Shown here in pieces: positions 2,818 to 11,739 of a DNA stretch of 52,686 nt; position 1 is the first letter of the stretch; the number at the start of each line of letters is the position of its first letter. The position numbers were made by a program, and so were the translations under genes. The notes under the pieces were generated by a model. That model was given only the letters and a program-made list of their open reading frames with translations, was not told the origin of the DNA and made no database searches. This stretch comes from Paludibacteraceae bacterium (GTDB lineage: Bacteria > Bacteroidota > Bacteroidia > Bacteroidales > Paludibacteraceae): the NCBI GenBank assembly GCA_017480285.1, contig JAFVAX010000082.1, positions 1-52,686 on the forward strand, written 5' to 3'.

Positions 2818-2863
2818 CATCCAACAGCGAAGCGGTCTAACTTCCAACCTCCAACAGCATCGC
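2798..2863. repeat. Short direct repeat (CCAACAGCGAAGCGGTCTAAC family) at a convergent gene junction
   Basis: Two near-identical 21-bp copies (2798-2818, 2821-2841; one difference) are followed by a partial copy (2848-2863). The first copy supplies the stop codon of the thioesterase. The second contains the stop of the phosphatase on the other strand. A related block sits at 10914-10976. Confidence 0.75.
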
Positions 2864-3304
2864 CTGACAAGCTCGATAAAGATCGTTGTATGTTTTCTCA
2901 AAATTGCCCGTGTACCAAGGGTCTGCCACTTCGCGGTCTTCGCCTGCCCACTGCATCATAAGCGATATCTTCTTCTCATACTGAGGCTGGCAGACATACG
3001 AGCGAGCGATATTCCTGAGCCAACGGAGATTATACTCATCCATGCAGACGATATAGTCAAAGTCCGCAAAGTCTTCACGAGTTATTTGTCTTGCCTTGTG
3101 TTTCTCGAAGGGTATATTTTTCTCTTTCAGTATTCGTTTGGCAGGCGGGTAGATGTCGTTGCCTATCTCTTCGGTTGAGACGGCACAAGAGTCAATCAGG
3201 AACTCCTGTTCCCTACCCTGCTCTCTAACAAGTTGCTTCATAATATACTCCGCCATCGGCGACCGACATATATTACCATGACAAACAAAAAGTATCCGCT
3301 TCAT
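2837..3304 (-). CDS. Low-molecular-weight protein tyrosine phosphatase
   Basis: A 155-residue cytoplasmic phosphatase of the LMW-PTP/arsenate-reductase fold. The N-terminus holds the P-loop CHGNICRS (the CX5R motif, with nucleophile Cys and phosphate-binding Arg). The C-terminal part has EVADPWYTG, whose Asp is the general acid. The ATG at 3304 puts the P-loop about seven residues from the start, as is usual; an upstream in-frame ATG at 3355 would overlap the promoter. The last residues (LLEVGS) are encoded by the repeat at 2821-2863. The substrate is unknown; family members act on tyrosine-phosphorylated proteins, including in exopolysaccharide control. Confidence 0.9.
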   Translation of the reverse strand: MKRILFVCHGNICRSPMAEYIMKQLVREQGREQEFLIDSCAVSTEEIGNDIYPPAKRILKEKNIPFEKHKARQITREDFADFDYIVCMDEYNLRWLRNIARSYVCQPQYEKKISLMMQWAGEDREVADPWYTGNFEKTYNDLYRACQAMLLEVGS

Positions 3305-3325
3305 AGTTTTTCTGTATATTTTTTG

Positions 3326-3356
3326 CAAATATACGAAAAAATATGCAATTTTCAAT
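3326..3356 (-). promoter_or_regulatory. Promoter of the tyrosine phosphatase gene
   Basis: On the minus strand the -7 element TATATTTG lies at 3333-3326. A weak -33 (ATTG) is centred near 3355, about 20 bp upstream. It is 21 bp from the ATG. Confidence 0.6.
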
Positions 3357-3424
3357 TATTTCTGCATGAGGGTTTTAATTCTCGTCATTATTCCGATGCT
3401 AATCCTCATTCTAATAGCAAATTC

Positions 3425-3448
3425 TCATTCTGACGAAGGTCAGAATCT
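3425..3448. repeat. Interspersed palindromic repeat, single full copy
   Basis: TCATTCTGAC-GAAG-GTCAGAATCT with an 8-bp stem. It is preceded at about 3381-3424 by decayed partial copies (TCATTATTCC, TCATTCTAAT). Same family as 19579, 25692, 30991, 37143, 42810 and 46540. Confidence 0.85.
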
Positions 3449-3451
3449 AAA

Positions 3452-3536
3452 AAAAAGACTGTCCACAAATTAAACTGACCTTTTACGGATTTGTTTTTCT
3501 ACTATATCTGAAAAATCAGTTAAATCTGTGGACAAG
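3452..3536 (-). terminator. Terminator of the caspase/VWA operon
   Basis: Nearly perfect 19-bp arms (3460-3478 and 3516-3534, two mismatches) enclose a 37-nt loop. On the minus strand the stem is followed by GTC and eight T residues. It lies about 25 bp past the stop of the last operon gene. Confidence 0.8.
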
Positions 3537-3559
3537 TTTTAAGAAGTTTTGCCGTCTTA

Positions 3560-5314
3560 TTATTTAACTTTCAGTTTGTCGCCAAAGTGGTAGCCAAAGG
3601 TAAAGGCCGGTTCGAAATAGAGGGAAGTGTTAAAATAGTTTTTATTATACTCCCCTATAGGAACTCCTGCAGTTAAGTCAAAAGTGAAATAGAAATGTTC
3701 GCGTATTACTCTACCAATACGAAATTCTATCGGCAGATAATAATTGTTTATATCAAGATAATTAAAATGCGACATCGCAAACCCTAAACAGGGCGAAATA
3801 CCAATGATATGTGGCTTATCGTTCAAATCGCCGGCGAGCATAAGCAACCCGGCCTTAAACCCTATACCGTACCCTATTTTAGTCCCATACCCGTCGGTTA
3901 TTTGTACCGATGGTCCACCTTCGAATGAAGTATATGCACCCATGGCAAATCTGTCGTTAATAGGTAGTGCAAAATCAATTCCGAACTTAACATTTAAGCC
4001 TATGTGATGGAATTTTTCAGTATAATAAGAATTTGTCCATCCATAATAATCAGAATAATAAGTCTCTCCATCTTCATAACTGATATACTCATACGGCAAA
4101 CCAAATCCGCCATTGATACCAACGAAGGCATGTCTTGTTTTTATCGGTTTGGGCAGTGGCTTGGGTTCCGGTTTCGGCTCCGGCTCCGGTTTTGGTCCGC
4201 CACCACCGGTTATCGCCTCTTTCTTACCGAAGGTCCAGCAGACGCGTCCCACACGGGCTGGTGCTACATAGCAATCAAGCACTTTCCAAGATTCGGTCAA
4301 ACGGTCGGCTATCTCTTTGAATTTTTGTTCGAGTCGGTCAATACTCTCAAGTCTTTCATAGTGTTGTTTGTCGTTAGGTACAGCAAGTTGTTGCAGTTTG
4401 CCCTCGAACTTAACCTGCTGTTGTTGGTTGGTGATGTCCACACCTTTAACAAAGACGACATCGCTTTCGTAGTTACTAAGTTTGCCTTTTGCCTCACTGA
4501 TGATATAGTCGTAGTAAGCATCAGCGGTAACGATAGGTTGCGGTTTATGGTCAAGGTCTTGCGATGTTTGGTCTATACCATCGGTAAATGTGATGAAGTG
4601 AGATTTCTGATAATTGCTCATACTTCCGCTTTCGATATATTGCTGCGTGAAGTCGATTGCGCGATCCCAAGCATAGAAAAGTGCGGTACCGTTGCTTGTA
4701 TGCCAACTGTTTATTTGGTTGCATAGGTCGCGGCAGTTTTGGTTGGTGAGTGGTCTAATGGCCAGCATCTTTGTATCGGGTATGCTTGAGAAGCCGATAA
4801 CACCAATATGCACATGTCCGCTTCCGCCAGTTGCTGTACAGATATTCTGCAAGAAATTGACAGCCGAGCGCTTTACTTTATTAAAGTCGCTTACAAGCGA
4901 ACTTGAGCAGTCCAAAAGAAGCATCATAGTAATATCTTTGTTCAGATACTTTGTCTGCTCACCTTTTTTTATCTCCACATCAGGTTGCCAATCGTGTGTA
5001 TCAGGGTCAAGATACCAATAAGAGATGTTGTAGAAACCCGGGAAATCGCCTATAGGTTTAATCTGCTCAAAGGTGAACATTACTTCCTTACCTTCAGGTC
5101 TTTGCCCTACATATACACTTTTCTTGGGGAGAACAAACCCTGTTGGCACAACATTAGTCAGTTCATACTGTACTGTTCCATTAACAATACGATAGTTAAA
5201 GTCGCCCTCAATTTTATATGAGGCTTCATCTGGACGCACACGATTGAGCAAATCGTCAGCAAATAATGTGTTCACAAAAGAAATGCAAAACACAAGAAGA
5301 AATAGTTTTTTCAT
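3560..5314 (-). CDS. Exported VWA-domain protein with C-terminal predicted outer-membrane barrel
   Basis: A 584-residue protein with signal peptide 1-19. A beta-rich region (25-120) precedes a von Willebrand A domain (about 127-340). Its metal-ion-dependent adhesion site looks complete: DCSSS at 135-139 (DxSxS), Thr210, and Asp in FTDGID at 243-248. A Gly then Pro/Lys/Glu linker (369-390, PKPEPEPKPEPK) leads to about 195 residues rich in aromatic alternating strands ending in FGYHFGDKLKVK, typical of an outer-membrane beta-barrel. By inference the VWA domain sits in the periplasm, tethered to the outer membrane. It is the last gene of the operon, 21 bp after the BACON gene. Partner and ligand are unknown. 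Confidence 0.75.
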   Translation of the reverse strand: MKKLFLLVFCISFVNTLFADDLLNRVRPDEASYKIEGDFNYRIVNGTVQYELTNVVPTGFVLPKKSVYVGQRPEGKEVMFTFEQIKPIGDFPGFYNISYWYLDPDTHDWQPDVEIKKGEQTKYLNKDITMMLLLDCSSSLVSDFNKVKRSAVNFLQNICTATGGSGHVHIGVIGFSSIPDTKMLAIRPLTNQNCRDLCNQINSWHTSNGTALFYAWDRAIDFTQQYIESGSMSNYQKSHFITFTDGIDQTSQDLDHKPQPIVTADAYYDYIISEAKGKLSNYESDVVFVKGVDITNQQQQVKFEGKLQQLAVPNDKQHYERLESIDRLEQKFKEIADRLTESWKVLDCYVAPARVGRVCWTFGKKEAITGGGGPKPEPEPKPEPKPLPKPIKTRHAFVGINGGFGLPYEYISYEDGETYYSDYYGWTNSYYTEKFHHIGLNVKFGIDFALPINDRFAMGAYTSFEGGPSVQITDGYGTKIGYGIGFKAGLLMLAGDLNDKPHIIGISPCLGFAMSHFNYLDINNYYLPIEFRIGRVIREHFYFTFDLTAGVPIGEYNKNYFNTSLYFEPAFTFGYHFGDKLKVK

Positions 5315-5335
5315 TTTTGTAAAGAATTAGTTAAT

Positions 5336-6835
5336 TTATAGATAAAAAGTATATTTCGAAACTCCATCGGTTATCAAAACCGTGCCGCTATCGGTAAACT
5401 TGACATATTTGATTTTCCATTGTTTGGCCGCATATTCAATCTTCTCAAATACTTTGGTAGGTATATCCTTAAAGTAACATCCTCCATTACAGCATACAAC
5501 AATACCTTTGTTTGAAAGCGAGACAGAATAGACATACCCATACTTTTCGTGTGCTTCCTTAATTATTCCATGTATCGTAGTAGTTGAACCATAGAAATGT
5601 TTGTCTGTAATAATTGCAAATTCACCTTTGTCGTTGATTGCCATTGACATTATTACATCGCCATCTTTAAGATAACTGCGTATCTGGTCAAGAAAAGCCA
5701 TCGGTGCATTTGCTTGCCAACCGCCCTGCCCGAAGGCTATAGCATAATAAGTTCCATTGTTTGATAAACACACATCATGAATAGTATGTCCATTAGCATT
5801 CGCCTCTTTTAACTTTTCATATATCACACTCGGCACGCCTGATGTTTTGATATACCCATTATTGCCTATGATTGCCACACCGTACCTTTCAGTTATTGCA
5901 CCAGTCTTGCAAGCCTTATAATCATTATTCAAATTATCTGACAGATATTTTAATCCAACGGCATTGTCGGTATATGTAACAGTATTCCCATAAAGGATAT
6001 AAGACGAACCATCGCTTTGCTTTATTGTTCTATACACATATCCGCCTGTTGTCGTGCTCTTATAACCCTCTTGCCGAATATTCACCTTAATCTCTTCATT
6101 CCCCGACTTCAAGACAAAATAATCGGTTCGGCTATCCGTCAGTTTGTTAGGTTGGCACTTGACGGTTATGCCACTACTCGTTTTTTCAAGTTGACTCCAG
6201 TTATAAGTATTGGTGGAAATATAATAGTAATCCGTTGATGTAACACCCACATACTTCGTTCCGCCTACTGCATCAAAACTTAAATTTGCAGTGCTGACAC
6301 TGAATTGCTTTGTGCGTGCGACAGGCTCAGGGTCTTTTACCACAGGAATGTCTCGCCGTTCTGCTTCTGCCTTTGCTATACCTAAAATTTTATAATCTTT
6401 AATTGTCATCTCAAGCGGAACGGTATATTTCAATATGCTCTGCCCGGGCACTTCATTATCGCTATACACATAAAGCATATACCATACAACCATATCGTTG
6501 TAACCGCGATTAGTCACCGAAACTCTATTCGGCACGAAACGAAGTAACATACGCTTATGCTGCTCATCGGAAAGCGAAGTAAGATATGTTGTGACTGCTA
6601 CCCCCTTTGCATCAGGCAAGCCGTGCAACTTAACCTCTACATCCGGATATATTGAGTTGCCGGAAAACATCTGCTCAATTTTTCGTGCAATAGTAGGAGA
6701 ATCGTTTTCAACAGCGACATACTCATTAACCAACTTGTAGTATTGCAACACGAAACTAATAGCATCACTTTCAGTTATTGCAAAAAGCAAACTATTAATA
6801 AGCAAACCTGCAATTATTATAACACTGCGTTTCAT
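5336..6835 (-). CDS. Exported BACON-domain protein with shared N-terminal module
   Basis: A 499-residue product. I chose the ATG at 6835 because it gives a clean signal peptide (MKRSVIIIAGLLINSLLFA) and lies 1 bp past the upstream gene's stop, as in coupled operon genes. Residues about 22-155 resemble modules in the two preceding operon proteins (helix with ARKIEQMF, then PDVEV and a set of strands). Residues about 178-257 fit a BACON domain (FSVSTANLSFDAVGG... VNIRQEG). The C-terminal about 230 residues repeat a motif of the type VSLSNKG / LSNNGTYYAIA / AINDKGEFAII, suggesting a small beta-propeller or repeat sheet. The function is unknown; BACON domains are thought to bind glycans or mucins. 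Confidence 0.7.
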   Translation of the reverse strand: MKRSVIIIAGLLINSLLFAITESDAISFVLQYYKLVNEYVAVENDSPTIARKIEQMFSGNSIYPDVEVKLHGLPDAKGVAVTTYLTSLSDEQHKRMLLRFVPNRVSVTNRGYNDMVVWYMLYVYSDNEVPGQSILKYTVPLEMTIKDYKILGIAKAEAERRDIPVVKDPEPVARTKQFSVSTANLSFDAVGGTKYVGVTSTDYYYISTNTYNWSQLEKTSSGITVKCQPNKLTDSRTDYFVLKSGNEEIKVNIRQEGYKSTTTGGYVYRTIKQSDGSSYILYGNTVTYTDNAVGLKYLSDNLNNDYKACKTGAITERYGVAIIGNNGYIKTSGVPSVIYEKLKEANANGHTIHDVCLSNNGTYYAIAFGQGGWQANAPMAFLDQIRSYLKDGDVIMSMAINDKGEFAIITDKHFYGSTTTIHGIIKEAHEKYGYVYSVSLSNKGIVVCCNGGCYFKDIPTKVFEKIEYAAKQWKIKYVKFTDSGTVLITDGVSKYTFYL

Positions 6836-6836
6836 A

Positions 6837-8036
6837 TCAATATGGTAAAATGCTGACAATCTTATTATCAACAATCTTTATCCTTGCATTAAAATTATAA
6901 TTTACCTTACCGTCACGACTGCGCACACCAACTTTGTAGGCAAACTCAGAGGCATTCCTACTTATTTGCAAGACTTTAATGTCAGTAACGAAAAAGCCTA
7001 CTTTTATGTTCTCGTCTGCCAAATCTTCTATCTCTGTCAGGTACTCACCAATAGATACAAGACGCGATTCTTTGGCTCTGCGAATATACCGCTCAATGTC
7101 GTTTGTCAGATGAGAAACACCAAACACATACGGCTCTTTATCCGCACTGATAAACATCGACTTTATTTTCCTTGCCAACGAGACATTTTGCGTATTATGC
7201 GAATACTGCGACAAAAGTTCATAAAACTGCTTTATCTGCTTTGCCGCCTCACCCGCTTTATCTTGAGGTTTCTGATTGTTATCCGTAACGGCGATATTTT
7301 CAACACGATAAATCAAATAGCCCGAATTCTTTTCTTCTCTTACAAACTGACGCACGAAAAAGCGGTAGTCAGGCACTTGCTGAAATATATAAGTAACACG
7401 CTTAACCTCTTTAATACGAAGATGTCCATAATAAACAAGCGTATTGAAAGCAGTCAGACGATCCGCCTTAAAACTATCGCTCGAGTACAACTGTATGTTT
7501 TGCGAATTGGTAGTCGTAACAGATTGAAGGGTTATGAAATTGACATCGTGCTGATTAGGCAAAATACGCAAACGGTCTGATTGCGTTTTGGGCGTAAGGG
7601 CAAGAGCCTTCCCATACACATCTGCAATACTCCACTTGTAAATATCGTCTTTCACCTTTTCGGTTTTTAATTTCAAAACGAGGCTGTCAGTCTTTCCGTT
7701 GAGCAGAACCTCACAATGTGCCAGCGCACACCAAGCAGTATCCTCAAATGCGATTTTAACTTTGTTCCGCTCTATGGCATCAATAAAAGAATCGGCAACT
7801 TCTTTGTTTTGCAAGTATGCTTGGCGGTCAAACAACAAAATTCTGTTATCCTTACGCCACAAGGAGTCTTGTTCGGGTTTGACAAGCAGGTCTTTAAGAT
7901 TAAAACGAAGTATAAACTCATCGATTACTTTTATGTTATAGTCGAAGTGTTCAAACTCTGTGTCACCGATAAACATCTGCGCATGCAACCCGCAAGCGAA
8001 AACAAGCAGAGTTAAATATGTCAAAAGTTTTTTCAT
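6837..8036 (-). CDS. Exported protein of unknown function with the operon's shared module
   Basis: A 399-residue protein with signal peptide MKKLLTYLTLLVFACGLHA. I do not recognise a named family. The C-terminal 135 residues (IKQFYELLSQYS, SLARKIKSMF, then strands ending KVNYNFNARIKIVDNKIVSILPY) look like the module found at the start of the BACON protein and throughout the next upstream protein. The start overlaps the upstream stop by 4 bp (ATGA), which indicates translational coupling. Predicted location is the periplasm. Confidence 0.7.
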   Translation of the reverse strand: MKKLLTYLTLLVFACGLHAQMFIGDTEFEHFDYNIKVIDEFILRFNLKDLLVKPEQDSLWRKDNRILLFDRQAYLQNKEVADSFIDAIERNKVKIAFEDTAWCALAHCEVLLNGKTDSLVLKLKTEKVKDDIYKWSIADVYGKALALTPKTQSDRLRILPNQHDVNFITLQSVTTTNSQNIQLYSSDSFKADRLTAFNTLVYYGHLRIKEVKRVTYIFQQVPDYRFFVRQFVREEKNSGYLIYRVENIAVTDNNQKPQDKAGEAAKQIKQFYELLSQYSHNTQNVSLARKIKSMFISADKEPYVFGVSHLTNDIERYIRRAKESRLVSIGEYLTEIEDLADENIKVGFFVTDIKVLQISRNASEFAYKVGVRSRDGKVNYNFNARIKIVDNKIVSILPY

Positions 8037-8641
8037 TGTTTGGTCATCGATTGAATTGAAATATCACCCAAAAGAACCGTAAAATCGCCGGTAGGCTCTT
8101 TCTTGACATGTACCGTTACTCGCTTTTCTGTCTTATCTCTATAGACGATATAATCACCTTTATAACCGATAAAGACCTGATAAAAAGTAACTGTTGCAAC
8201 ATACTCATTTTCAGCCACTTTCCGTATCCCGCCATCGGCAAGATAGCATTTAGAACTCTGAAAAACAATTTTTGTATATGCCAAATCTTTAAGTCGTACA
8301 AGATACTGCTTAATGAAATATGAATTTTTCTTGCCTGTTGTCATTGAAGCCACTTCGATTCTCGGGGCAGGAATAATAACATTACCTTCATCGTCTTTGG
8401 TATCGTCGCCATGACCGACAAACAAGTCCATACTTGCCTCAATATGATACTCTTTAATACTATCCGGATTAGACTTATTGGCAATAAAACCAAGGTGCTT
8501 GGTAAAAGCCTTAACTTGATGAACACATTGCTTATTGATTGTCTCACGAACTTCAATCTCCATATTAGGGTCATCAAGTACATCCGTGGCAAAAAGAGTT
8601 ACACTGCAAAATAGAGCAGCAATAAAAAGAAGTTTTTTCAT
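8033..8641 (-). CDS. Small exported protein, single copy of the operon's shared module
   Basis: A 202-residue protein with signal peptide MKKLLFIAALFCSVTLFA. The rest appears to be one module: a helical start (VHQVKAFTKHLGFI), PRIEVASM, a helix (YFIKQYLVRLKDLAY), then strands (EYVATVTFYQVFIGYKG, KRVTVHVKK) ending with GDISIQS. The helix-then-curved-sheet order suggests an NTF2-like or cystatin-like fold, but that is a guess. It starts 6 bp after the caspase gene stops. The family is not recognised. Confidence 0.65.
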   Translation of the reverse strand: MKKLLFIAALFCSVTLFATDVLDDPNMEIEVRETINKQCVHQVKAFTKHLGFIANKSNPDSIKEYHIEASMDLFVGHGDDTKDDEGNVIIPAPRIEVASMTTGKKNSYFIKQYLVRLKDLAYTKIVFQSSKCYLADGGIRKVAENEYVATVTFYQVFIGYKGDYIVYRDKTEKRVTVHVKKEPTGDFTVLLGDISIQSMTKQ

Positions 8642-8647
8642 AGTCTT

Positions 8648-9868
8648 TTATTCTTCTTCAGATTCAACATAAATTTCATGAATTTTCAGGAATATAACTT
8701 TCCCTTTGTCGTTTTTTATTTGTTCAAGTATAGTAAGGTTAGCAAGGTCGGTTTCCGTTGACAGGCGCAAAAGATATTTATCAATACTTGTTGATAGAAT
8801 AACGGTTTTTCTATCTTTACCCACAACTTTTACAAGACATTCATTGCCTTCAAAATACTTTGCCTTCACCTCACGACTTTTCCTTATGCGCGTTGCATCA
8901 TCAAGGTTTCTGTCGTCAGCCACTTGCGCTAATGCCTGACGCAAATCTTTTGCCTCAACATCGCCTTTGGGTTTTCTGTCTACCGAATCGTTTGACAGTT
9001 TGATTTCATAATATGGCGTTTGAGTATAACGCACGGGCTTTCCATCAACTATATCTACAAGTTCTCTTTTCGTACTGAACAGATAAGTGTTGTTTTTAAC
9101 CGTTGATAACAAATCCTCCCAATTAGAATATGATGCCTTACCGTCTTTTATGTCTTGAAACACTTCATTCAAATTCTTTTCCAAGAACATACCAAGCGAA
9201 GCACCTTTGGTTATACACCAGCCATACTGACCCTTAACGCTTGCCGTCAAAATAACACTACCGCTTTTGGAAAGGAACAGTTCCTTTATGTTTTCTTCAC
9301 CCTTTTTACGAATTATATCAGGCTCAGTTGCAAAAGCATAATTGACAGGCGGTTTGGTTGAAAGTGTAGGACTGACACTGTTGCAACAATCGCCAACTAC
9401 AAGACAGAAATGCGGATTCTTCTTCATTATCAAGTCGCGCACATTCTCAAGCGGATAGAAGTCCTCACCATTGCGAAACATCTCGCCTTGTGGCAAAGCA
9501 AAACACATCTGTGGGAAATTTGACCAATCGTTTACACCACGAGAACCATGACCTATGTAGATAAACACAACAATATCTTTATCCGTACAAGTCAAGTTGT
9601 TTAGCGTAGAAAGCAGGTTGGTCTTGTTACATTCGTATGCCTTCTTATCTATAGGTAAAGCACTATTGTATGAAGTGCCGATAGATGTTTCAATAGTTGT
9701 CAAAAAATCAAGAGAGTAATTGTCATGACTCGCTTGAGCGGCCTGACCGATAGACTCATCTTGAGTATCTGTAAAGATGATTGTATGAAAAGTCTGCGCA
9801 CGGACTGAGAATGTAAAAAAGGTCAGAAACAAGAAAGACAAACAACTGCAAATAGATATTTTTTTCAT
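8648..9868 (-). CDS. Exported caspase-like (peptidase C14/metacaspase) protease
   Basis: A 406-residue protein with signal peptide 1-24 (ending SVRAQ). The caspase-like core spans about 27-260. The first strand (FHTIIFTD) leads to VVFIYIGHGS with catalytic His107. CLVVGDCCNS follows, where Cys162 aligns with the nucleophile of the metacaspase D-x-C-x-S motif. Both catalytic residues are present, so it is likely active with Arg/Lys or Asp specificity unresolved. Residues about 290-406 form a beta-rich C-terminal part, possibly regulatory. The export signal places it in the periplasm or outside the cell, unlike cytoplasmic bacterial caspases of antiphage systems. It is the second gene of the operon. 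Confidence 0.8.
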   Translation of the reverse strand: MKKISICSCLSFLFLTFFTFSVRAQTFHTIIFTDTQDESIGQAAQASHDNYSLDFLTTIETSIGTSYNSALPIDKKAYECNKTNLLSTLNNLTCTDKDIVVFIYIGHGSRGVNDWSNFPQMCFALPQGEMFRNGEDFYPLENVRDLIMKKNPHFCLVVGDCCNSVSPTLSTKPPVNYAFATEPDIIRKKGEENIKELFLSKSGSVILTASVKGQYGWCITKGASLGMFLEKNLNEVFQDIKDGKASYSNWEDLLSTVKNNTYLFSTKRELVDIVDGKPVRYTQTPYYEIKLSNDSVDRKPKGDVEAKDLRQALAQVADDRNLDDATRIRKSREVKAKYFEGNECLVKVVGKDRKTVILSTSIDKYLLRLSTETDLANLTILEQIKNDKGKVIFLKIHEIYVESEEE

Positions 9869-9880
9869 AGTCGTAAGTAT

Positions 9881-10468
9881 TTAGAAAATGTTCAGTTCCA
9901 AGTATTTGTCGATATTCTCATTTTTCAGATATTGCTGAAAATAAAGTATTACCAACCGTTCATAGTCGTATTTGAGATATAGCGGTTTTTTGTCGTTATC
10001 AAACAAACACAACTGCCCGCCGGTAAAGGAAAAAATCACATCCACGGTTTTATCTTTTCCCTTGAACGACAAAGCCACATCCGGCATAAAGGGGGTTTTA
10101 AGTTTTATACCACTACCAAAATATGCGGAACGATCACTAAATAAGAACAATAGCGGACATAGTTGCTCTTTATTTAGTTTTCCTAAGTCTTTTACTATAT
10201 ATGCTCCGTGAAACATTGCTTTCGACGAGTCGGCTTTCAATGAGTCAACCGCCTTAGCAGATACTTCATACAACTGAACTTGTTCAGCAAAGAATAGAGT
10301 GTTGAATACAGAGTCGCCCAATATATTCTTGACAGAATCATCAAGAAGGAAAGGAAGCGAATAATCACTTAACTGAGAGGTAGTGTTTTTCTTTTTACAT
10401 GCGGCATTAACGCATGTAAGCAACATCACCATTGTCAGGACAACCGATAAGAAATAGTTTCTTTTCAT
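9881..10468 (-). CDS. Exported protein (possible lipoprotein), first gene of the caspase operon
   Basis: A 195-residue protein starting with a hydrophobic export signal that ends VNAACKKKN. The Cys could be lipidated, but the lipobox is poor (Asn at -3). The remainder is a mixed alpha/beta domain with no recognised family (KNILGDSVFNTLFFAEQVQLYE, shown only in part by its first residues KNILGDSVF). The size and position just ahead of the caspase gene (12-bp gap) would fit a pilot, inhibitor or anchor, but nothing in the sequence proves this. About 380 nt separate its ATG from the predicted promoter. Confidence 0.6.
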   Translation of the reverse strand: MKRNYFLSVVLTMVMLLTCVNAACKKKNTTSQLSDYSLPFLLDDSVKNILGDSVFNTLFFAEQVQLYEVSAKAVDSLKADSSKAMFHGAYIVKDLGKLNKEQLCPLLFLFSDRSAYFGSGIKLKTPFMPDVALSFKGKDKTVDVIFSFTGGQLCLFDNDKKPLYLKYDYERLVILYFQQYLKNENIDKYLELNIF

Positions 10469-10491
10469 AATAAAGGGTATTTAGTACATAC

Positions 10492-10845
10492 AAAAAAAGC
10501 ATAGACTTCTCACATTGTTTTTCTTTTCACAGAAGGACTTCGAACTTTCCCATCAGTCAAAAAAAACAATAAAGAAACCTACGCCGTATGCTGTACAAAT
10601 AGCACAACGAGTGCTACAGTGTATACATACCCATAGGCATTTACTGCTACTTTGCTCGTGACTGATAATTAGAAAGTGTTCGAAGTTTTCTGTGAGTCAA
10701 ACAAAGCGTCAGAAACGCTATAACATTATTTTAATCGTTATTTCTTTTAAGTAGCAGGTCTATCTACCACTGTGCGACACTTCGCTGAAATAACATCAAT
10801 CCCACCGCCCGAAATAGCCTCTTACTGACTATTCGGCATAGAATT
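10492..10845 (-). ncRNA. Candidate structured leader RNA or independent ncRNA ahead of the caspase operon
   Basis: This 506-bp gap (10469-10974) has no ORF but much base pairing. (1) A long imperfect hairpin spans 10498-10719: arms pair at 10515-10520/10699-10704, 10527-10534/10688-10695, 10537-10545/10678-10686 (9 bp perfect) and 10552-10559/10659-10666 (8 bp). The apical stem is 10600-10605/10611-10616. (2) An 8-bp stem 10737-10744/10787-10794 encloses small hairpins. (3) A hairpin lies at 10809-10836. On the minus strand the long hairpin ends directly in seven T residues (10498-10492). It may therefore be a terminated ncRNA with a 6S-like long-hairpin shape, or an attenuating leader of the operon. 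Confidence 0.5.
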
Positions 10846-10850
10846 TCGTA

Positions 10851-10881
10851 CAAATATACAACAATTTATTTATTTTACAAA
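10851..10881 (-). promoter_or_regulatory. Promoter for the caspase operon leader
   Basis: On the minus strand TTTG (10881-10878) is followed after exactly 19 bp by TATATTTG (10858-10851), a full match to the Bacteroidota consensus. It is about 380 bp upstream of the first ATG (10468), which implies a long transcribed leader. Confidence 0.75.
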
Positions 10882-10913
10882 ATTTTGCTATTATTTTTAG
10901 AAATTTTAGAACC

Positions 10914-10976
10914 CTTCGCTGTTGGAAGTTGGCATCCAAAATCCAACAGCGAAGCGATCCAACATCCAACAGCGTC
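10914..10976. repeat. Hairpin-forming copy of the CCAACAGCGAAGCG repeat
   Basis: A perfect 13-bp stem (10914-10926 with 10942-10954) is followed by a partial copy (10963-10976). It is the same element as at 2798-2863 and lies just past the stop of the DUF2520 gene, where it may slow or end transcription, although no T-run follows it. Confidence 0.7.
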
Positions 10977-11739
10977 AACGGTCCAAAATCTGTTCAGTTA
11001 GTTGATTATACAGGTTGAGCAAGTTAGGATTCGTAGAAAGCAGTTGCCGGTGTTTGTCTATAATTTGCATATCTCCCCGTCGAGCAGGGCCGGTTTGCGC
11101 TTGTTCGGGCGTGAGAGTATGTACCTTCCGTGCCGTCTCATCGATAAGTGGCAAGAGCCACTCTGCCGGCAGGTCTGCCATCTGCATCTGTTCAAAAGCC
11201 AAACGATATAGGCAATTCGTAAAATTATTGGCTATAACACCGGCAAGATGAAGGCGTATCCGTTTCTCGTCGGTACTCAAAACCACATTCGCCGACAACA
11301 GTTTTGCCAAACTAAGCAAGATTTCTTCGTTCCGTCGGTTGTTTGCCTGAACGAGTATCGGCACTTCGTCAAGTTTCACGGGCCTACTCTTTGTGAAAGT
11401 CTGAAACGGATAGAACACACCATAGTTCTCAACTTTCCCCATAAAGACTTCGCCGCTGACAGAGCCTGCCGTATGCAGGTGAAGGGCGTCTGTATGGGCA
11501 AAAACAGGTTCTACTGTCTGCAACACATGGTCAGGCAGACAGTAGAAGTAGAAGTCGGCATCTTTAACAACAGCCGAATAGTCTGATGTATATTCGCAAT
11601 TCAATTTATCGGCAAGTAACGTTGCAGACTGCTCATGAAGGCTATAGACTTGTCGTACGAAAAAGCCTTTGTCGCGAAACACGAGTGCAAGGTTTGTAGC
11701 CACATTGCCGGCACCGATAAAGACAATTTTACAATTCAC
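10975..11739 (-). CDS. DUF2520 / Rossmann-type NAD(P)-dependent oxidoreductase
   Basis: A 254-residue cytoplasmic protein. The N-terminus has the dinucleotide-binding motif IGAGNVATNLA of the ProC/F420-reductase superfamily. The C-terminal half is helical (HLAGVIANNFTNCL...; QTGPARRGD), which matches the DUF2520 family. Substrate is not established for this family. It starts 3 bp after the yidC stop, so it is translated from the same mRNA. In Bacteroidota it is commonly found near cell-envelope or Maf/KdsC-type genes; here it follows yidC. Confidence 0.8.
   Translation of the reverse strand: MNCKIVFIGAGNVATNLALVFRDKGFFVRQVYSLHEQSATLLADKLNCEYTSDYSAVVKDADFYFYCLPDHVLQTVEPVFAHTDALHLHTAGSVSGEVFMGKVENYGVFYPFQTFTKSRPVKLDEVPILVQANNRRNEEILLSLAKLLSANVVLSTDEKRIRLHLAGVIANNFTNCLYRLAFEQMQMADLPAEWLLPLIDETARKVHTLTPEQAQTGPARRGDMQIIDKHRQLLSTNPNLLNLYNQLTEQILDR

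Follow-up and report, generated by a model that had tools for sequence, protein, structure and literature searches.

The window, a 52,686-nucleotide stretch of DNA from Paludibacteraceae bacterium (GCA_017480285.1, contig JAFVAX010000082.1), carries six tightly packed open reading frames (ORFs) on its minus strand at 3560-10468, numbered here g1 to g6 from the upstream end. Export is predicted for all six products, one of which is a caspase-type protease. The spacing from g1 to g6 is 12 bp, 6 bp, a 4-bp overlap, 1 bp (counted from the g5 ATG) and 21 bp, as an earlier note on this DNA had read it (gaps between 1 and 21 bp, or overlaps of 4 bp). That note had also called all six proteins exported, and the heuristic rule applied here, a rule of our own other than SignalP, agrees for six of six, although it flags 103 of 234 control ORFs (44%) as well. 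In the caspase loci, the same rule finds the signal in 97-100% of g1 to g5.

The first gene, g1 (9881..10468, minus strand, 195 amino acids in the ORF list), encodes a lipoprotein-like protein with predicted export. Its lipobox is weak in the window copy and clear by pattern in 16 of 32 g1 proteins. The second gene, g2 (8648..9868, minus strand, 406 amino acids), encodes the predicted exported caspase-family protease, in which both of the catalytic residues previously reported are present, H107 in a GHG motif and C162 in DCCN. In the 43 caspases found in this gene setting the Cys is kept in all and the His in 42, with a single loss of the catalytic His (L133), and both residues are invariant across 34 aligned caspase sequences. 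The C-terminal part of g2 is related to g3 (hhalign 92.7%).

AlphaFold2 modelling was confined to g2 and g3. The g2 model (pLDDT 84.4, pTM 0.80) matches MALT1 and caspase folds in both Foldseek and VIA, placing the predicted structure within the caspase fold. The MALT1 paracaspase is the nearest solved fold, and as the rows for caspases 3, 7, 8 and 9 lie within 1-2 Z of it, closer kinship to MALT1 is not claimed; the solved MALT1 chains carry an Ig domain at the place where g2 has its g3-like C-terminal domain. The window g2 has no match to Pfam Peptidase_C14 (PF00656) at E 1, its own-genome paralogue C46 barely passes that cut-off (21.6 vs 21.4 bits), and the NCBIfam model for caspase, EACC1-associated (NF047832) gives g2 21.9 bits, below its 140-bit cut-off. 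The residue two before the Cys, which we take to be the basic-specificity position of paracaspases and orthocaspases, is Asp in the window (D160). Across the 43 caspases it is Asp in 21, Met in 18, Ser in 3 and Ala in 1, so cleavage after basic residues would not be general in the family.

The third gene, g3 (8033..8641, minus strand, 202 amino acids), encodes a predicted exported protein with an NTF2-like fold in its model; it shares 6-11% identity with the CaMKII hub and other NTF2-like oligomerisation domains, the comparison being with a single modelled g3 chain. A kinase with a g3-like sensor domain (L134) appeared with an iterated profile and disappeared with a clean g3 profile, and was discarded. 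The fourth gene, g4 (6837..8036, minus strand, 399 amino acids), encodes a predicted exported partner whose conservation was read from the alignment; its residues beyond about 262 form an extension absent from most relatives.

Relatives of g4 are present in 80 of 393 Bacteroidales genomes, and 40 stretches around g4 matches were taken from those 80, one of which (L164) showed none of g1 to g4. From 250 caspase relatives, 79 loci were kept. Counting identical g4 proteins once reduced the number of g4 loci from 79 to 75. In this count g1 to g3 were sought upstream of g4 only, with gene order also taken from the full gene list. The gene next upstream of g4 is g3 in 74 of the 75 distinct loci; one g4 locus without g3 (L145) was left out of the g4 tree. 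The caspase precedes g3-g4 in 43, and g1 is there as well in 32. These 43 caspase loci are in Bacteroidota, three of them in the window's own genome. Gaps of at most 50 bp separate g1 from the caspase in 32/32 loci where g1 was found, g2 from g3 in 37/43 and g3 from g4 in 40/43. In a sample unselected for linkage (the 393 Bacteroidales genomes, with at most four caspase candidates scored per genome), g4 adjoins 11 of 12 full-length caspases. Presence of the caspase on the g4 tree requires 2 changes, compared with 23.8 in shuffles. Departures from this pattern include L132, where g4 is followed by another kind of caspase that is C14-like, and G385, where a g1-caspase pair without g3-g4 stands before FHA, kinase and PP2C genes.

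The recurrence of the g1-g4 arrangement across the order makes the cassette more than a chance association, and the unit is a four-gene core, g1-g2-g3-g4, with a variable fifth gene, rather than all six genes of the window. Comparison of gene neighbourhoods, which the earlier note had proposed as a check, thus upheld one part of its six-gene system, the recurrent, predicted exported g1-g4 set around an intact caspase, and not the membership of all six, as g6 lies apart from the cassette elsewhere. No description of a system with the g1-g2-g3-g4 set was found in the open-licence literature searched, in line with the earlier note, whose author knew of no described system with its six genes. Within the genus, 2 of the 41 genomes sampled have the cassette, the window's own included. 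It is also carried by a cultured mouse commensal, Xylanibacter muris (L056). In the congeners that were compared, the genes flanking it in the window (10975-11739 and 2837-3310) are on separate contigs, which leaves no empty site to read.

At the fifth position, g5 (5336..6835, minus strand) is listed as an ORF of 5336-6874 from a TTG, with a likely ATG at 6835. The BACON domain already recognised in this predicted exported protein is confirmed by Pfam (25.9 bits vs a cut-off of 25), and its C-terminal part looks repeat-like by eye. Between the window and the C46 paralogue 52% is shared in g2 and 25% in g5. Among the fifth genes of caspase loci, 11 of 41 encode WG repeats and 4 of 41 BACON, with TPR or no known family also seen. 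The g3-g4 pair also occurs without the cassette caspase, in 32 of the 75 g4 loci and mostly beside a leucine-rich-repeat (LRR) protein; LRRs were found in 25 of 28 scanned proteins after g4 in such loci. In the Pfam scan of the fifth proteins, the neighbouring gene was taken by hand in L129 and L130. Sure homology between g5 and g3 was considered and rejected, as a first hhalign value of 95% had been inflated by signal peptides; after trimming, the values were 29% for caspase loci and 57-81% for LRR loci.

The last gene, g6 (3560..5314, minus strand, 584 amino acids), encodes a predicted exported protein combining a VWA domain with a C-terminal part that is likely an outer-membrane barrel, as suggested by a strand pattern read by eye and by matching short stand-alone ORFs. 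Pfam reports no VWA domain for the g6 of the window, close homologues mostly carry PF00092 and/or PF13519 (157 homologues, of which the best 120 are listed), and the full MIDAS noted before can be read by eye as D135xSxS, T210 and D245. The other 42 caspase loci, in the stretches analysed, contain no ORF related to g6. Full-length homologues were found in 2 of 40 congeners (G025 and G429), neither of which has g4 and in neither of which g6 stands beside any cassette, and a third genome (G016) has the cassette and lacks g6. The VWA-barrel gene is therefore accessory, not a fixed partner of the protease, and core membership of g6 was rejected.

Upstream of g1, a candidate Bacteroidetes-type promoter, TTTTG-N19-TATATTTG, lies at 10851..10882 on the minus strand, as a match to what we take to be the Bacteroidetes promoter consensus. 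Within 3300-11000 the minus strand has TAnnTTTG only at 10858, 3602 and 3333, and a scan for sigma-70-type promoters gave 27 sites vs 21.3 expected. The leader between promoter and g1 (10469-10850) is predicted to fold into a long imperfect hairpin (fold z -6.17) and contains a structured RNA of about 230 nt, modelled as R1 (10492..10721, minus strand), on which the earlier note was silent. Fold and covariation delimit an antiterminator 5' strand at about 10634-10646, a shared strand GGCGTAGGTTTC at 10574-10585 and a terminator 3' strand at 10499-10509, followed in the sequence by a U-tract at 10492-10498, all on the minus strand; the hairpin and U-tract together make a predicted terminator. 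The outer, terminator and antiterminator helices all covary in an alignment of 29 leaders chosen from the matches. Over the 29 sequences, the 12 pairs of the terminator are formed in 97.4% of cells, and 11 cells are doubly changed, a number of double changes reached in 0/500 shuffles, while its pair types are not above shuffles (305/500). Including the upper stem, the antiterminator has 18 pairs, 90.8% paired, and 22 doubly changed cells (again 0/500 shuffles as high); the antiterminator proper accounts for 11 pairs, 87.5% paired and 7 with double changes.

Of the 41 genomes sampled from the genus, 39 contain R1; the window's own has 17 copies. Among the 43 caspase cassettes, 15 have R1 ahead of them on the strand of the operon (3 of these 15 were in the seed of the R1 model), 12 of them within 1 kb, and it precedes none of the 32 g4 loci that lack the cassette caspase. 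A survey of downstream genes in 29 of 30 matched loci, the remaining one being the window's own, found a mixed set; 17 of 28 such genes appear to encode exported proteins, a share little higher than the 44% of controls. The copy number, the long imperfect hairpin and the mixed company would suit a palindromic mobile repeat that sits before genes by chance. Such an origin is nevertheless highly improbable, given the compensatory changes in all three helices, the U-tract at the 3' end and an orientation that, in 28 of 29 loci, agrees with that of the following ORF. No Rfam 15 family covers the leader (E up to 1, 0.1 and 0.05), and no description of it was found in the open-licence literature searched. 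DUF805b RNA (RF02914), a known cis-regulatory motif of 35 nt, lies just downstream of R1 in four loci, one of them below cut-off, and is separate from it. R1 is a candidate new attenuator family and likely an on/off switch of the operon.

Prokaryotic caspase homologues, among them metacaspases and orthocaspases, are surveyed in passages of two papers (PMC3501461; PMC6426788), and share with g2 a His-Cys dyad in a caspase-type domain. Some have an N-terminal helix, maybe a signal peptide, and occur in operons with surface functions (PMC3501461; PMC6426788). In comparison, g2 falls below the Pfam C14 cut-off and belongs to a family predicted to be exported almost throughout, and the constant partners g1, g3 and g4 are a feature of the cassette not described in those passages. 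The NTP-dependent conflict systems treated in part of PMC7159879 resemble the cassette in a caspase effector, a multi-gene layout and swappable parts; the passages deal chiefly with MoxR-vWA, iSTAND or GTPase components, whereas here Pfam and NCBIfam find no NTPase and the proteins are predicted to be exported.

We tentatively favour, as a possible rather than an established reading, a putative envelope complex of the core and the variable fifth protein, in which the variable protein would recognise something and the caspase would cut envelope or incoming proteins. Transcription would likely start at one promoter and enter the leader, where the terminator fold would mean off and the antiterminator fold on, and the products would be exported by Sec to the periplasm. 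There about half of the g1 relatives are likely held by a lipid anchor, g4 and the predicted NTF2-like g3 would probably serve as a hub in dimeric or oligomeric form, and the C-terminal domain of the caspase may dock on the related g3. Recognition would come from the fifth protein, LRR in most loci where the cassette caspase is absent and WG, BACON, TPR or no known family where it is present. Paracaspases and initiator caspases are usually activated when subunits are brought together; binding may do the same here, and in the window copy (D160-x-C162) the cut made by the activated caspase would fall after a basic residue. A stronger version, an inflammasome-like envelope machine with an NTF2-like hub, exchangeable LRR, WG or BACON arms, an assembly-fired caspase of one old lineage and a new shared riboregulatory switch, is rather unlikely.

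An unlikely alternative is a secreted or surface protease that digests foreign or host proteins for food, silenced or escorted by g1, g3 and g4, with the variable gene binding substrates or surfaces. The predicted export of every part, the putative binding domain BACON and the WG repeats, the M48 or M6 peptidases added in some loci, and the mostly rumen and gut origin of the caspase-form loci (by their titles) would all fit. However, the only secretion signal found is Sec-type, no NCBIfam family scores above its cut-off, and the existence of g3-g4 without the cassette caspase in 32/75 loci means that these proteins are not merely caspase inhibitors. That the genes share an operon solely for co-expression in envelope upkeep, their products never touching, is distinctly improbable: the exchangeable nature of g6 and of the fifth gene speaks for it, but the g1-g4 arrangement is constant over families and g2 and g3 have a domain in common.

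Self-killing or anti-phage action, with envelope damage or phage firing the caspase to destroy the envelope of the infected cell, appears improbable. It would accord with the patchy presence in the genus, with LRR and other repeats suited to a recogniser, and with the caspase-like peptidases that are effectors in conflict systems described in part of PMC7159879. Against it, no NTPase family was found among the six window proteins (Pfam, NCBIfam), a reading of the neighbour lists by eye picked out no defence genes, and the caspase clade is stable on the g4 tree. A known type of anti-phage system is rejected, since PADLOC matches neither the caspase nor anything else except g1, weakly (E 0.042). 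Finally, the caspase might cut an envelope protein and thereby send a signal on to Ser/Thr kinases of the cytoplasm. In G385 the g1-caspase operon includes PP2C, two kinases and three FHA proteins, a kinase gene with MORN repeats overlaps the caspase gene in G208, and kinases and FHA adjoin g3-g4 in G164; kinase genes are nevertheless found in six of the searched loci (L028, L044, L052, L053, L134, L143), leaving this reading quite improbable.

As we read the field, bacterial caspases have been studied chiefly as cytoplasmic effectors of death or defence. A caspase family predicted to be exported, with fixed partners common to the LRR form, makes it possible to test in a concrete case whether caspases act in the cell envelope of gut bacteria. 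If the R1 leader is an attenuator, it would be a new regulatory RNA family that links the caspase operons with numerous others in the same genomes, and the ligand or protein to which it responds would then tell when the caspase system is used.

The window comprises the whole of contig C63 from a 2.4 Mb source genome of 107 contigs, among whose nearest named relatives are Paludibacteraceae of horse-faecal and deer-rumen origin. ORF calling recovered the six minus-strand genes of an earlier note (g1-g6, 3560-10468) at the same positions and with the same gaps, and its assignment of all six products to export agrees with a simple heuristic that predicts an export signal at the start of each protein. 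By pattern matching, a Bacteroidetes-type promoter precedes g1 and the next same-strand match lies at the far end of g6; thus, g1-g6 likely form one transcription unit.

The conserved core consists of four genes, encoding a lipoprotein-like protein (g1), a caspase-family protease (g2), a predicted NTF2-like protein (g3) and a conserved partner (g4). The linkage proposed for all six genes therefore stands for g1-g4, an arrangement that recurs, but does not extend to g6, which is no part of the core. Profiles for g1-g4 were seeded with sequences of the window plus three or four further loci, iterated, and run on ORFs from two sets: 79 named loci that were found, and hence selected, by their caspase, and 40 stretches found by g4. 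In 75 distinct g4 loci, counted on the upstream side only, g3 lies immediately upstream of g4 in 74, and the caspase precedes g3-g4 in 43, of which 32 also have g1. One caspase of this family (L133, 9990-10865) lacks the catalytic His and keeps the Cys. A single locus in the full list, L132 (6391-12250), has g3-g4 and more NTF2-like genes followed, downstream of g4, by a different, C14-like caspase that looks exported; here, the same partners have acquired another caspase. A draw of 393 Bacteroidales genomes was unselected for linkage, and scoring in each genome was limited to four caspase candidates and six for g4. In this draw, g4 turns up in 80 genomes, representing 43 of the 206 genera, and it adjoins 11 of the 12 full-length caspases. 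The twelfth, in genome G385, is paired with g1, and FHA, kinase, PP2C and FHA genes come next; this run (L185, 1111-9743) encodes two Ser/Thr kinases, one PP2C and three proteins of the FHA type, of which one carries a trypsin-like domain.

The VWA-barrel gene, g6, is an add-on. Contrary to its proposed membership, no g6 relative was found among the ORFs in the examined stretches of the other 42 caspase loci. Full-length relatives are present in G025 and G429, both without g4, whereas G016 has the cassette and no full-length relative. Solitary VWA-barrel genes occur in congeners without the cassette (L182 7927-9549, L183 563-2170, L184 7797-9440). The leader RNA treated further below occurs in G025 just 5' of a full g6 relative (contig C120) and of a partial one (C41), a placement that may explain how g6 joined the control of the window operon.

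Two forms of the g3-g4 operon can be distinguished. In a g4 tree of 74 rows built by a quick method, loci with and without the caspase separate with two changes, compared with an average of 23.8 for shuffled labels, and 38 caspase rows cluster together (support 88); caspase rows outside this cluster come from Larkinella, a Cytophagales contig and G208. The sister operon lacking this caspase (L136-L166), found in many Bacteroidales, carries g3, g4 and, in most cases, an 800-900-aa LRR protein, with leucine-rich repeats in 25 of 28 scanned proteins 3' of g4. Its first gene is often lipoprotein-like; such a gene lies 5' of g3-g4 in four of seven inspected loci (L136, L138, L147, L150). In caspase loci, the fifth protein matches WG repeats (11 of 41), BACON (4), TPR (about 4) and, in single cases, TonB_C, PEGA or a second caspase, a tally of matching proteins only. 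Between the C63 and C46 copies of the source genome, the caspases share 52% and the fifth proteins 25%. Together, these differences identify the fifth gene as the variable position of the cassette. The source genome holds three cassettes (C63, C46, C31) and additional Pfam C14 caspases at L012 (11860-13194), L001 and L003, one of which adjoins the C31 cassette and has a DUF2846 part.

Upstream of g1, the region 10469-10850 folds far better than shuffled sequence (z -6.17), and within it lies a structured leader of about 230 nt (10492-10721, minus strand) with covarying terminator and antiterminator helices. Helices were counted after 29 copies, selected among the model matches, had been aligned by sequence alone. 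Paired cells reach 92.6% in the outer helix (34 doubly changed), 97.4% in the terminator (11) and 90.8% in the antiterminator with its upper stem (22), or 87.5% in the antiterminator proper; these values are somewhat favourably biased, as the helices were taken from the same 29 sequences. For each of the three helices, none of 500 shuffles matched the number of doubly changed cells, and slid controls lowered pairing to 23-55%. Further pair types in the outer and terminator helices did not exceed shuffles (167 and 305 of 500). Because terminator and antiterminator use one strand, GGCGTAGGTTTC, they are mutually exclusive, and a U-tract follows the terminator. By its sequence, the leader has the anatomy of a candidate attenuator.

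The leader is multicopy in the genus and precedes caspase cassettes and many other genes. BLAST found six further places in the source genome, one immediately 5' of the C46 cassette; the remainder (C81, C85 twice, C101 and a truncated copy in C68) precede same-strand ORFs that, by eye, mostly look exported. A covariance model was built from seven copies, of which those from the window, C46 and L018 precede caspase cassettes. It finds matches in 39 of the genus's 41 sampled genomes, 17 of them in the source genome alone. Copies outside the window include those at L011 7583-7811, L012 11459-11687, L196 5613-5816, L197 647-876 and 7448-7720, and L199 7442-7672. On the operon strand, the leader lies 5' of 15 of 43 cassettes (within 2.5 kb and with E no higher than 0.01; four caspase loci offered less than 700 nt of upstream DNA). 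Twelve are within 1 kb of g1, eight of these at or no more than 65 nt from its ORF; in some of the others, additional genes intervene. It also lies about 390 nt 5' of the g1-caspase-kinase operon of G385 (L185 10130-10363), and it was found at none of the 32 g4 loci that lack the cassette caspase. In 28 of 29 congeneric loci, the leader and the following ORF share a strand; 17 of these 28 ORFs look exported, compared with 103 of 234 controls, which leaves no clear tie between the leader and exported proteins. By eye, a few of the following ORFs resemble sugar-nucleotide or glycosyl transfer genes. In four loci, a short DUF805b motif (RF02914) comes just 3' of the leader (L196 5558-5592, L226 1410-1444, L221 1434-1469 and, below cut-off, L210 1442-1476). 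No Rfam 15 family covers the leader itself.

The cassette is patchy in the genus, as g4 occurs in two of the 41 sampled genomes. In a phylum-wide draw, g4 was found in seven of 395 genomes, the other six belonging to the same class as the source genome, which is counted in both draws. Pairs of g1 and caspase reach beyond this range. With a single-pass g1 profile, matches lie immediately 5' of caspases in SAR324 contigs (E 5e-18 and 8e-15) and, more weakly, in Parachlamydiales (1e-9) and Thiomargarita (3e-7 and 1e-6) (L057, L072, L059, L062). Some of these loci contain several caspases in tandem.

The computed evidence comprises gene arrangement and conservation, an intact dyad, predicted folds, a domain that the caspase has in common with g3, export signals predicted almost throughout and the covarying leader. 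In the proposed mechanism, the cassette proteins would bind one another, the fifth protein would recognise something, assembly would activate the caspase, and the leader would halt transcription or let it through. This whole chain is given somewhat below an even chance, and its individual parts are considered more probable. Bacterial caspases have been described before, some of them encoded in operons that serve surface functions (PMC3501461); neither the g1-g4 caspase gene set nor the leader was found described in the literature searched. The gene set is a candidate variant of bacterial caspase systems, and the leader a candidate new attenuator family.
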